Origin: Devosia sp.
GTDB taxonomy: Bacteria > Pseudomonadota > Alphaproteobacteria > Rhizobiales > Devosiaceae
Assembly (NCBI GenBank): GCA_016793415.1
Contig: JAEUMC010000052.1
Coordinates: forward strand, 1 to 6,952
Direction of reading: 5' to 3'
Length of the DNA stretch: 6,952 nt
Shown here: in pieces, positions 40 through 6,952 of the stretch
How the letters are laid out: every line of letters begins with the position of its first letter
How positions within the stretch are numbered: the first letter of the stretch is position 1
The notes under the pieces: generated by a model
Told to the model about the DNA's origin: nothing
What the model saw: only the letters and a program-made list of their open reading frames with translations
Database searches by the model: none
Program-made: the position numbers and the translations under genes

Positions 40-1618
<1,579 letters not shown>

Positions 1619-3390: not shown

Positions 3391-3792
3391 GTGATCCGCG
3401 ACGACGCCGGCGGCATCTCGCCCATGTTCATCTTCATCGCCGGCTCGGTGGCATTCCTGCTGATCGTCGGCGCCATCATCTGGTTCGCCATTCCCGGCGC
3501 CAGCGCCAGGCACCATTTTGTCTCGCCATCAGGACGTGTCGCGCTCGATATCGGCGAGCAGTGCGGCGAGACCTGCGAGCGTCGAGTCATCGCAGAGACG
3601 ATTGCCGCCGATGGCAGCAGATTGCGCCGCGGCTGCCGCGTCGAGCTTGCCGAAACCCACCCGGTCCTGCTCAACGCCTTCCCGCTCTGGGCTGCCGACG
3701 AGCAGACGGTGGAGATCGTCTATGCCGATGCCGACGGGCAGGGTGGAAAGTTCCCGCTGAACATCGCTGCCGATTGCACGCAGACCGAGTGA
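3391..3792 (+). CDS. Small single-pass membrane protein of unknown function with four cysteines
   Basis: I do not recognise this 133-residue protein. It has a short acidic N-terminus, one strong membrane segment at about 12-34, and then a soluble domain of about 95 residues. That domain is probably periplasmic, with the segment acting as an uncleaved signal anchor. It contains Cys58, Cys62, Cys82 and Cys129; the CxxxC spacing and the likely periplasmic location suggest disulfides, which is inference. The GTG start lies one base after the methyltransferase stop, and GAGG at 3382-3385 sits 5 bases before it inside the upstream gene, so translation is probably coupled. An ATG at residue 12 would cut into the membrane segment and is less likely. 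Tight spacing and an intact frame support a real gene. Confidence 0.75.
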   Translation: MIRDDAGGISPMFIFIAGSVAFLLIVGAIIWFAIPGASARHHFVSPSGRVALDIGEQCGETCERRVIAETIAADGSRLRRGCRVELAETHPVLLNAFPLWAADEQTVEIVYADADGQGGKFPLNIAADCTQTE

Positions 3793-4885: not shown

Positions 4886-6112
4886 TCATTCCGCCGCAGC
4901 TGCAACTGTGGTTGAACCCGTGCGCCGCCGCTCCTTGCCGCGAGCCCACTGAATCACCGGGTTCTCGACCAGATGATACGACAGGTGCGCGACGGTGAAA
5001 GTGAGCAGCGTGATGATGGTGCAGGTGACTGCGAAGCGGATCGGGTCAGAGGCCTGGCCGTGGTCGATCTGCGGATCCCAATAGACCCGCACCAGCTCCA
5101 GCACCGGATAGTGCCAGATATAGATGCCGAACGAGATTTTCGCGACGTAGCGCGTCACCGGATTGTCGAGGGCCGACCCGAGCAGGGCGCTTGAAGGCGC
5201 CGATGACAGGAACAGCCCGACCGCCAGAACGAACCAGGGGAAACCGTAGGGTACCCCGAGCCAGCCCCAGCCATCGGCAGTCTTGGCGGCAAGTTGGTCG
5301 TTCATCAGGCTAATGCCCCAGGCGAAGGCGGCGAGCGCCATGAGGTCGAACAGCACGTGCCGATACTTCGCCCACCGCACCTGCAATCCACCGGCCAGGG
5401 CGCCGACGGCGAACATCGCGAAGAAGGCGAAGGGGTTGAAGCGCGGCATCCAGTACTTGGCGCCGCCGATCAATCCGTAGTCCCAGCCGCGCTGGTGCAT
5501 GTCGACCCGGTAGTACCGCGTGAACAGCCAATGCGCGAGCAGCGCCAGGGCGATCACGCCAAGCCACAGCAAGCGCGACTGCCAGCCCTGGCCGCTCCAC
5601 CGGCCAACCAAGAACAGCGCCGCAAAGCCGAGCGGCAGCAGCAGATACGAGGTGACTTCGAAGCTGATCGACCAAAGCGGCCCGTTCACTTCCACCGGGA
5701 ACAGCGTCACCCAGTGCCAGTCGGCGACGGCGAAGATGCCGGCTACGAGTCGCAACAGCAGCTGTCCGTCGAGCACCGCCCCGAACACCGTGATACTGAG
5801 GACAAACGTGACGATCAGCGCCAGCCAGAACCCCGGCAGGATGCGCGCCGCGCGGCGCATGGCATAGACCCTGAGGGACGGCGCCGGTTCGCCGCGATCC
5901 AGCGCCTGCCAGAACGGGCGCGAGAGCAGGAAGCCCGACAGCACGAAGAACATCGCCACGCCGAAGGTGCCGATCTGGGCGAAGATCCGGAACCATTCGA
6001 TGCCACCCAGGTGATCCTGCCAGCTCATGCGCTGCGCCAGGTGGTGGAACAGCACCGTCAGGCATGCGGCCGCGCGGACGAAATCCGCGCCGAGAAGGCG
6101 GTTGTCAGTCAT
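4886..6112 (-). CDS. Acyltransferase_3 family integral membrane acyltransferase
   Basis: The 408-residue polytopic inner-membrane protein belongs to the acyltransferase_3 family (OafA/NodX/ExoZ type), which moves acetyl or other acyl groups onto surface polysaccharides, lipids or peptidoglycan. Signatures are the N-terminal DFVRAAACLTVLFHH (10-24) with Arg13 and His23/24, GVAMFFVLSGFLL (51-63), the RxxR motif RRAARILPGFWLAL (86-99), GPLWSISFE (144-152), SFGIYIWHYPV (327-337) and the terminal SYHLVENP (378-385). About ten hydrophobic segments are present. The acceptor is not predictable. The start at 6112 has GAGGGGA about 6 bases upstream and gives the normal N-terminus; the reading frame stays open to an ATG at 6271, but the extra 53 residues are arginine-rich and not family-like. 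It is the first gene of a pair with the DUF1349 gene. Confidence 0.93.
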   Translation of the reverse strand: MTDNRLLGADFVRAAACLTVLFHHLAQRMSWQDHLGGIEWFRIFAQIGTFGVAMFFVLSGFLLSRPFWQALDRGEPAPSLRVYAMRRAARILPGFWLALIVTFVLSITVFGAVLDGQLLLRLVAGIFAVADWHWVTLFPVEVNGPLWSISFEVTSYLLLPLGFAALFLVGRWSGQGWQSRLLWLGVIALALLAHWLFTRYYRVDMHQRGWDYGLIGGAKYWMPRFNPFAFFAMFAVGALAGGLQVRWAKYRHVLFDLMALAAFAWGISLMNDQLAAKTADGWGWLGVPYGFPWFVLAVGLFLSSAPSSALLGSALDNPVTRYVAKISFGIYIWHYPVLELVRVYWDPQIDHGQASDPIRFAVTCTIITLLTFTVAHLSYHLVENPVIQWARGKERRRTGSTTVAAAAE

Positions 6113-6359
6113 CGTTTCCCCTCGCCTCGCACGGCCCACGTCTGCCGCGCGGCGTCGTGCAATCGATTTCATTTGGCACCGACTGGCCAATGATCTCAAG
6201 CGTTTTCGAACCGGGCCAGGGCGGCGACGCTCGGCCCCTCCGATCGACGTCACCAGCGGGCGGCGATCCACAGCTTACCTTGCCCAGTCTATTGCACCCC
6301 TTGTTTGTGACAGTCGGAGCGGGCTAGGCCAATCGACCTCACCTCCTGCTTTGCGGTGC
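6113..6359. other. Divergent intergenic region, no gene seen
   Basis: These 247 bases separate the minus-strand acyltransferase gene from the plus-strand Popeye-like gene and should hold promoters for both. Apart from one weak minus-strand promoter candidate and a small inverted repeat near 6171-6199, I see no RNA gene, terminator or repeat. I could not find a convincing plus-strand -35/-10 pair. Confidence 0.6.
6171..6199 (-). promoter_or_regulatory. Candidate promoter for the acyltransferase gene with overlapping inverted repeat
   Basis: Read on the minus strand, TTGAGA (6199-6194) is a 5 of 6 match to the -35 consensus, followed by a 17-base spacer and CCAAAT (6176-6171), a poor 3 of 6 match to the -10. 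It lies about 60 bases before the acyltransferase start. A small inverted repeat, TTGGC-N8-GCCAA (6173-6190), covers part of the -10 and spacer, where a repressor site could sit. Both signals are short enough to arise by chance. Confidence 0.25.
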
Positions 6360-6952
6360 ATGATGTCCGGTCTGTTCGACCAGTTGATCACGGGTCTTGC
6401 CAACCCGGTCATCCTGTTTGGTCACTTCACTTACTTCCTGCTGATCGTCTCGATGCTGATGCGGCGGATGGTGTGGCTGAGAAGCTTTGCCGTGGCGTCG
6501 GGCGTCGCCAAGATCGTCTATCGGGCGTTCTTCGTGTTCGATCCGGTGAGCGTGTTGTGGGAGACCGTGTTCGTGCTGGTGAATATCGGCCAGTTGCTGC
6601 TGATCTGGTACTATGAGCGCCACCATCGCTTCACTGACGACCAGCGCCATTTCGTCGACAGTATGCCTGCCAGCGTGGAGCGGCGGGCGCTCAAGCGGCT
6701 GCTCGGTTTTGCGACCGTCCGCGAGGTGCCTGCCGATGCGGTGCTGGTGCGCGAAGGCGAAGTGGTGAAAGACCTGCTCTACGTCGCCACCGGCGTCGCC
6801 CGCATCGAAAGCGGCGGGCGCATCATCGCGGTCTGCGGGCCAGGTGATTACTTGGGCGAGATGAGCTTTCTGAGCGGTGAGCCGGCTACCGCCACCGTGG
6901 TAGCGTCAAAGCCGATGCGGGTGCTGGCATTCGATCAGCAGCGGCTGCATGC
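6360..6952 (+). CDS. Popeye-domain-like membrane protein with cyclic-nucleotide-binding fold (3' end outside window)
   Basis: The frame is open from ATG 6360 to the window edge, giving 197 complete codons. Residues about 15-34, 40-59 and 65-85 form three hydrophobic segments. A linker with FTDDQRHFVDSMPASVERRA (91-110) leads into a cyclic-nucleotide-binding (cNMP) fold from about 113 on: VREGEVVKDLLYVATGVARI (130-149), then the phosphate-binding cassette GDYLGEMSFLSGEPATATVV (162-181). Three N-terminal helices followed directly by this domain is the layout of Popeye-domain proteins (POPDC1/BVES in animals, with known bacterial relatives), and the segment FVLVNIGQLLLIWYYE (71-86) resembles the third Popeye helix. 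Glu167 of the cassette is present, but the arginine that normally contacts the cyclic phosphate is Ala176. Two adjacent ATGs (6360, 6363) could start it; neither has a strong ribosome site. The function is unknown; nucleotide sensing at the membrane is inference. Confidence 0.8.
   Translation, partial: MMSGLFDQLITGLANPVILFGHFTYFLLIVSMLMRRMVWLRSFAVASGVAKIVYRAFFVFDPVSVLWETVFVLVNIGQLLLIWYYERHHRFTDDQRHFVDSMPASVERRALKRLLGFATVREVPADAVLVREGEVVKDLLYVATGVARIESGGRIIAVCGPGDYLGEMSFLSGEPATATVVASKPMRVLAFDQQRLH

Follow-up and report, generated by a model that had tools for sequence, protein, structure and literature searches.

The right-hand end of a short Devosia contig raises the question of whether bacteria encode counterparts of the animal Popeye (POPDC) proteins and, if so, whether such proteins would sense cyclic nucleotides. 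The contig (JAEUMC010000052.1 of assembly GCA_016793415.1; C541 in our numbering) was analyzed over its complete length of 6,952 nucleotides, hereafter the window, and breaks off inside a forward-strand gene for three predicted transmembrane helices followed by a cyclic-nucleotide-binding domain (3TM-CNBD gene; Table 1). A preliminary description of this DNA had proposed a Popeye-like protein that could act as a membrane-bound cyclic-nucleotide sensor. On balance, and with modest confidence, we lean toward a bacterial Popeye-like protein with a CNBD that lacks the canonical arginine, likely acting as a dimer that would relay a signal from the cytoplasm to the membrane and not as a classic sensor of cyclic AMP (cAMP).

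The reading frame is open for 197 codons from the ATG at 6360 to the contig end at 6950 in the window's list of open reading frames (ORFs). A full-length relative, P0002, has 235 amino acids and is 99% identical across the visible part, so about 38 C-terminal residues are lacking from the window copy, and statements about these final 38 residues are drawn from relatives. Full-length relatives have ~234 amino acids, and lengths range from 218 to 260 in the 120 listed. The closest named relatives, at 93–94% identity, come from Devosia (loci L012 and L019); against D. insulae (L019), 184 of 196 amino acids and 504 of 588 nucleotides are identical, with a nonsynonymous divergence (dN) of 0.032 and a synonymous divergence (dS) of 0.75 (NG86). 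The low dN relative to dS means that the gene is under constraint and shows no decay, that is, it is under strong purifying selection.

Hydropathy maxima near residues 16–34, 43–61, and 64–82 (1.9, 1.3, and 1.8), together with an AlphaFold model of P0002 (mean pLDDT 87.6; helices at 2–14, 16–33, 38–59, and 62–89), support the prediction that the first ~90 residues hold three membrane helices. Behind them, the window protein matches PF00027 at 61.6 bits (E 6.9e-17; cut-off 27.5 bits), and the PDB rows shown in a fold search with the whole P0002 model are CNBD proteins, so the order of membrane segments and CNBD given in the preliminary description stands. Conservation was read from three sets: a first group of 120 listed of 297 matches, in which near-identical rows are included and the rows are not independent; a second group of 120 listed of 470 matches, from a search started from the group of L043, a relative in the same class; and 32 diverse rows. 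Arg41 is invariant (120/120 in the first group, 32/32 diverse rows, 120/120 in the second group), and Asn75 is close to it (120/120, 31/32, and 120/120, respectively). His22 is present in 120/120 of the first group and in 32/32 diverse rows, but in just 36/120 of the second group; Trp67 is conserved in the first group and the diverse rows and is tryptophan in only 3/120 of the second group. By the positive-inside rule, the arginine-rich first turn and the acidic second turn would place the N-terminus outside and the CNBD inside the cell.

The Popeye profile PF04831, suggested as a check in the preliminary description, matches at scores (24.7 bits for the window protein, 27.6 bits for P0002) that both fall under the 28.1-bit cut-off of the release scanned. 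Bacterial members are already tagged PF04831 in databases: precomputed labels from a later Pfam version assign PF04831.19 to P0002 and to 42 of the 120 first-group rows listed, the other 78 carrying PF00027 alone, and many of the proteins in the second-group listing bear this label too, several of them being named Erythrobacter. L043 itself reaches 39.4 bits, above the cut-off. At E ≤ 0.001, PF00027 was matched by all 53 full-length relatives scanned and PF04831 by 48. When the membrane part was scanned by itself, 30 of 32 segments gave PF04831 at E ≤ 0.01 and 2 gave Imp-YgjV, so the similarity is not due to the generic CNBD, and the Popeye-type layout that had been proposed is borne out. The profile is rare, with matches at E ≤ 0.001 in 4 of 299 phylum genomes, the source genome included, of which one exceeds the cut-off, and in 0 of 14 controls. 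DSPE and FQVT, given as POPDC cassette motifs in passages of two papers (PMC6562197, PMC6952887), are absent, and YLGE and ATAT stand at those places. Because these motifs are missing and the score lies below the cut-off, the protein is, strictly speaking, not a POPDC1–3 member; it is Popeye-like in its predicted layout, its profile match, and the pattern of its cassette. Our literature searches found no paper on bacterial Popeye members; sections of POPDC reviews treat the proteins as unique, follow them back to animals and a protozoan, and point to bacterial CRP as the nearest relative (PMC6562197, PMC4973886, PMC4918794).

Among the 120 close relatives listed, the phosphate-binding cassette typically reads GE[LM]S[FY]L.G..A[ST]AT. 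In cyclic-nucleotide-binding proteins, a cassette arginine holds the phosphate of the nucleotide, and canonical binding goes with this arginine and a cassette glutamate. Here the glutamate is present and the arginine absent: HMMER places EPATAT opposite EPRSAT of a cGMP-dependent kinase, with Ala176 opposite the arginine. Position 167 is Glu in 120/120 of both groups and Glu in 29 and Asp in 3 of the diverse rows, while position 176 is Ala in 120/120 of the first group, Thr (98), Ala (11), Ser (9), or Pro (2) in the second, and Ala (30), Ser (1), or Thr (1) in the diverse rows. Since arginine never occupies the cassette place in the relatives listed and DSPE and FQVT are absent, this is not a canonical cAMP sensor, and the missing phosphate-gripping residue suggests that paired membrane signaling is probably its role rather than classic cAMP sensing. 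The input to the altered cassette would be a partner protein or some other ligand.

A route to pairing is suggested by the C-terminal helix, along which positions 210, 214, and 218 are mostly Leu or Met, forming a hydrophobic ladder, and Lys221 is conserved (117/120 in the first group, 32/32 diverse rows, 120/120 in the second group). These four residues are spaced like F249, I253, I257, and K260 of POPDC1; passages of PMC9830914 implicate the POPDC1 helix in the contact with POPDC2. Dimerization would thus proceed through this helix, and tandem copies, where present, would pair as a heterodimer in the manner reported for POPDC1–POPDC2. The predicted helix of P0002 stops at residue 229 of 235, 6 residues before the protein end, and neither a helix-turn-helix nor any other family was found at E ≤ 0.001 in the 53 scanned relatives, where matches were limited to PF00027 and PF04831; the relatives end after this helix, which agrees with the earlier judgment that the protein is not of the Crp/Fnr kind. 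A catalytic domain or membership in a channel or transporter family had been named as grounds for abandoning the Popeye assignment. No catalytic domain and no channel or transporter family appeared above cut-off in the Pfam and NCBIfam scans, and no ion-channel family at E ≤ 1 in Pfam or at E ≤ 0.1 and 1 in NCBIfam.

Several points weigh against a paired, Arg-less signaling protein. Single-chain models are uninformative on oligomers. The window is without the tandem copy found in L012 and L019, and the source genome, 82.5% complete, has a single membrane-profile match, so that a heterodimer partner is out of sight here. Arginine loss is not peculiar to the Popeye-like family, because the source genome has two further soluble CNBD ORFs (L042) without it, and L070, a distant 3TM-CNBD protein, has an arginine nine residues past the glutamate. 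Further, animal POPDC is reported in parts of two papers to bind cAMP despite its divergent cassette (PMC6952887, PMC4918794), so the loss is compatible with binding. We consider rather unlikely a true membrane-bound sensor, in which the CNBD would probably bind a cyclic nucleotide (cAMP, cGMP, or another) through a non-canonical cassette in the manner reported for animal POPDC: arginine is at the canonical place in 0/120 and 0/120 of the two relative lists, the motifs of POPDC itself are missing, and the soluble CNBDs that adjoin some relatives keep the arginine in 5/5 cases, as does a soluble CNBD of the source genome (L041). Of the sensor originally proposed, the membrane layout holds, and the sensing is weakened by the alanine in place of arginine and the missing POPDC motifs.

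Another candidate role concerns the membrane module. The membrane profile A3 matched, at E ≤ 0.001, 18 of 121 family, 16 of 289 class, and 26 of 299 phylum genomes, in samples that overlap and each include the source genome, some matches being weak. Outside the class, nine fetched phylum matches are stand-alone ORFs of 78–120 amino acids (L060–L067, L069); all five tested in Pfam/NCBIfam match Imp-YgjV, four above cut-off, and the same five give weak SemiSWEET matches (E 1.6e-4 to 0.5). A CNBD-controlled half-transporter, in which a SemiSWEET-like three-helix bundle would dimerize into a transport path gated by the CNBD, gains from profile comparisons with hhalign, in which A3 aligned with the set of nine stand-alone proteins at 96.6% (E 5.7e-10) and with the second half of YgjV at 93.1% (E 3.2e-7), against 0.5% for the first half, and the stand-alone set matched 17 SemiSWEETs (94.8%, E 5.1e-8, 48 columns), with a three-helix NuoK control at 0.1–0.3%; the four PDB matches that the stand-alone profile gave at E ≤ 10 belong without exception to SemiSWEET/MtN3 proteins (best E 0.021). 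The idea is nonetheless quite unlikely in our estimation, as the direct comparison of A3 with SemiSWEET gave no match (0.4%), SemiSWEET against YgjV reached 26.5%, and A3 had no PDB sequence match at E ≤ 10. A membrane-only model of low confidence (pLDDT 71.6, pTM 0.49) gave no fold match at E ≤ 0.001, and because this model is poor, the fold comparison with SemiSWEET is uninformative. The SemiSWEET connection, which would run indirectly through intermediates, is a lead rather than a result; our literature searches found no paper linking POPDC to SemiSWEET or SemiSWEET to YgjV. As observations in their own right, the stand-alone ORFs at L060–L067 and L069 are three-helix inner membrane proteins that are profile kin of the YgjV second half, SemiSWEET, and the Popeye membrane part, and L070 (287–919) is a distant 3TM-CNBD protein with a membrane part matching Imp-YgjV.

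The gene neighborhood was compared across twelve loci (L012–L023), with L024 (a fragment) and L025 (CNBD only) excluded from the counts. The upstream part of the window carries guaB, MAPEG, rsmB-like, TspO, DUF1349, and acyltransferase genes, in the same order as in L012 and L019, and the common neighborhood runs guaB ... rsmB-like ... Popeye-like ... guaA. At eight of the twelve loci (L012, L013, L014, L016, L017, L019, L020, L021) guaA starts 38–70 nucleotides after a 3TM-CNBD gene; in L023 an opposite-strand ORF lies between the two, no guaA was found within the stretch examined at L015 and L018, and the L022 stretch ends too early. Two of the 15 distant loci (L026, L027), which belong to two other families of the order, show the same adjacency. 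Tandem 3TM-CNBD copies occur at six of the twelve (L012, L013, L014, L019, L020, L021), always just upstream of guaA, and two membrane matches within ~1 kb of one contig occur in 7 of 18 matching family genomes, whose species may overlap the named loci. L012 5088–5935 corresponds to window 6181–6297, where the tandem paralogue is missing.

At five of the twelve loci (L014–L017, L022) a soluble CNBD that keeps PRSAT/S, and with it the arginine, lies directly upstream, and in such relatives this adjoining domain would perform the nucleotide sensing. At three (L014, L017, L022) the opposite strand carries genes for STAS, an HATPase_c_2 kinase, and a CNBD-SpoIIE phosphatase, which are a CNBD-linked partner-switching set; a search of the source genome returned no full CNBD-SpoIIE gene. 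Contig C906 of the source genome encodes, at L041 920–1354, a soluble single-domain CNBD with the arginine, kin to the soluble CNBDs of L014–L017 and L022. A 133-codon ORF at window 3391–3792 encodes a hydrophobic segment close to the start and matches neither Pfam (E ≤ 1) nor NCBIfam (E ≤ 0.1); the L012 ORF at the matching place has relatives in L016, L017, and L019.

Table 1. Coordinates of the 3TM-CNBD gene, its parts, and neighboring genes (window positions unless a locus is named)
Feature	Position	Strand	Remarks
Popeye-like 3TM-CNBD gene	6360..6950	+	alternative start 6363; truncated by contig end; residues numbered from 6360
Predicted membrane helix 1	6405..6458	+	residues 16-33, includes H22; model, hydropathy, conservation
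Predicted membrane helix 2	6471..6536	+	residues 38-59, includes R41; R35 and R36 in preceding turn
Predicted membrane helix 3	6543..6626	+	residues 62-89, includes N75 and W67
PF04831 (POPDC1-3) match	6420..6650	+	profile 6-86 of 140, 24.7 bits
CNBD-type domain, C-terminal side cut	6720..6950	+	PF00027 match 6720-6947
Phosphate-binding-cassette segment G162-V180, GDYLGEMSFLSGEPATATV	6843..6899	+	Glu167 at 6858-6860; Ala176, replacing Arg, at 6885-6887
IMP dehydrogenase (guaB)	116..1618	+	PF00478; upstream
Acyltransferase (Acyl_transf_3), divergent, next gene upstream	4886..6271	-	Pfam; synteny with L012 and L019
STAS/kinase/CNBD-SpoIIE genes	L014 3603-5777; L017 3643-6275 (ORFs); L022 947-3220	-	divergent from soluble CNBD and 3TM-CNBD pair

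The closeness of guaA at those eight loci and two distant ones, and guaB upstream in the window, could point to a regulator linked to GMP synthesis that would monitor purine status by sensing a purine nucleotide and signaling it at the membrane. We judge this very unlikely, as 13 of the 15 distant loci are without guaA in the 9.6–13 kb fetched, and the gene may be a passenger in a cluster (guaB, rsmB-like, guaA) that might exist anyway. A Pycsar-type antiphage membrane effector, with cUMP or cCMP as its trigger, is barely credible. The CNBD does match PADLOC Pycsar models (best 44.3 bits, P0002), and PycTIR (8jsk) is among the matching CNBD folds, but the P0002 matches are confined to residues 108–229, the generic CNBD, no cyclase was found among the scanned neighbors (some ORFs being unscanned and the downstream side missing from the window), and the gene is syntenic and under strong purifying selection.

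A bacterial family that combines the predicted Popeye layout, a PF04831 match across the membrane part, a cassette with Glu alone, and pairs in tandem would offer a small and tractable Popeye model, one that would address the role of Popeye in the membrane and what, if anything, the pocket binds. A bolder proposal, which we regard as speculative and unlikely, is that Popeye was an ancient bacterial invention, joining a SemiSWEET-like three-helix module to a CNBD without canonical phosphate binding to make homo- or heterodimeric CNBD-gated switches, with the POPDC1–POPDC2 pair of the heart as its animal descendant.

Compared with known systems, the protein shares CNBD similarity with Pycsar effectors (PycTIR and relatives) but has no TIR domain and no cyclase among its scanned neighbors. 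Crp/Fnr regulators have the same CNBD and C-helix, whereas here membrane helices stand in front, no helix-turn-helix stands behind, and the cassette arginine is missing. MloK1-type CNG/HCN channels also combine a membrane part with a C-terminal CNBD, to which PDB matches were obtained, but the present protein has three helices and no ion-channel family match. With SemiSWEET, YgjV, and the stand-alone proteins, it would share a three-helix module, linked by profile through intermediates; it differs in its fused CNBD and in having no direct SemiSWEET profile match. Animal POPDC1–3 differ from it in their DSPE and FQVT motifs, in the Pfam cut-off, which the score of this bacterial member slightly misses, in length (235 amino acids here vs. 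290–360 in a passage of PMC4973886), and in a long variable C-terminal domain, described in passages of PMC4080823 and PMC4918794, that is missing from the bacterial protein. They resemble it in their three membrane helices (predicted here), CNBD-type domain, and C-terminal helix, in a PF04831 match that spans the membrane part, in a glutamate within an otherwise non-canonical cassette, and in the occurrence of tandem paralogues (POPDC1/POPDC3, in the same passages; PMC4080823, PMC4918794).
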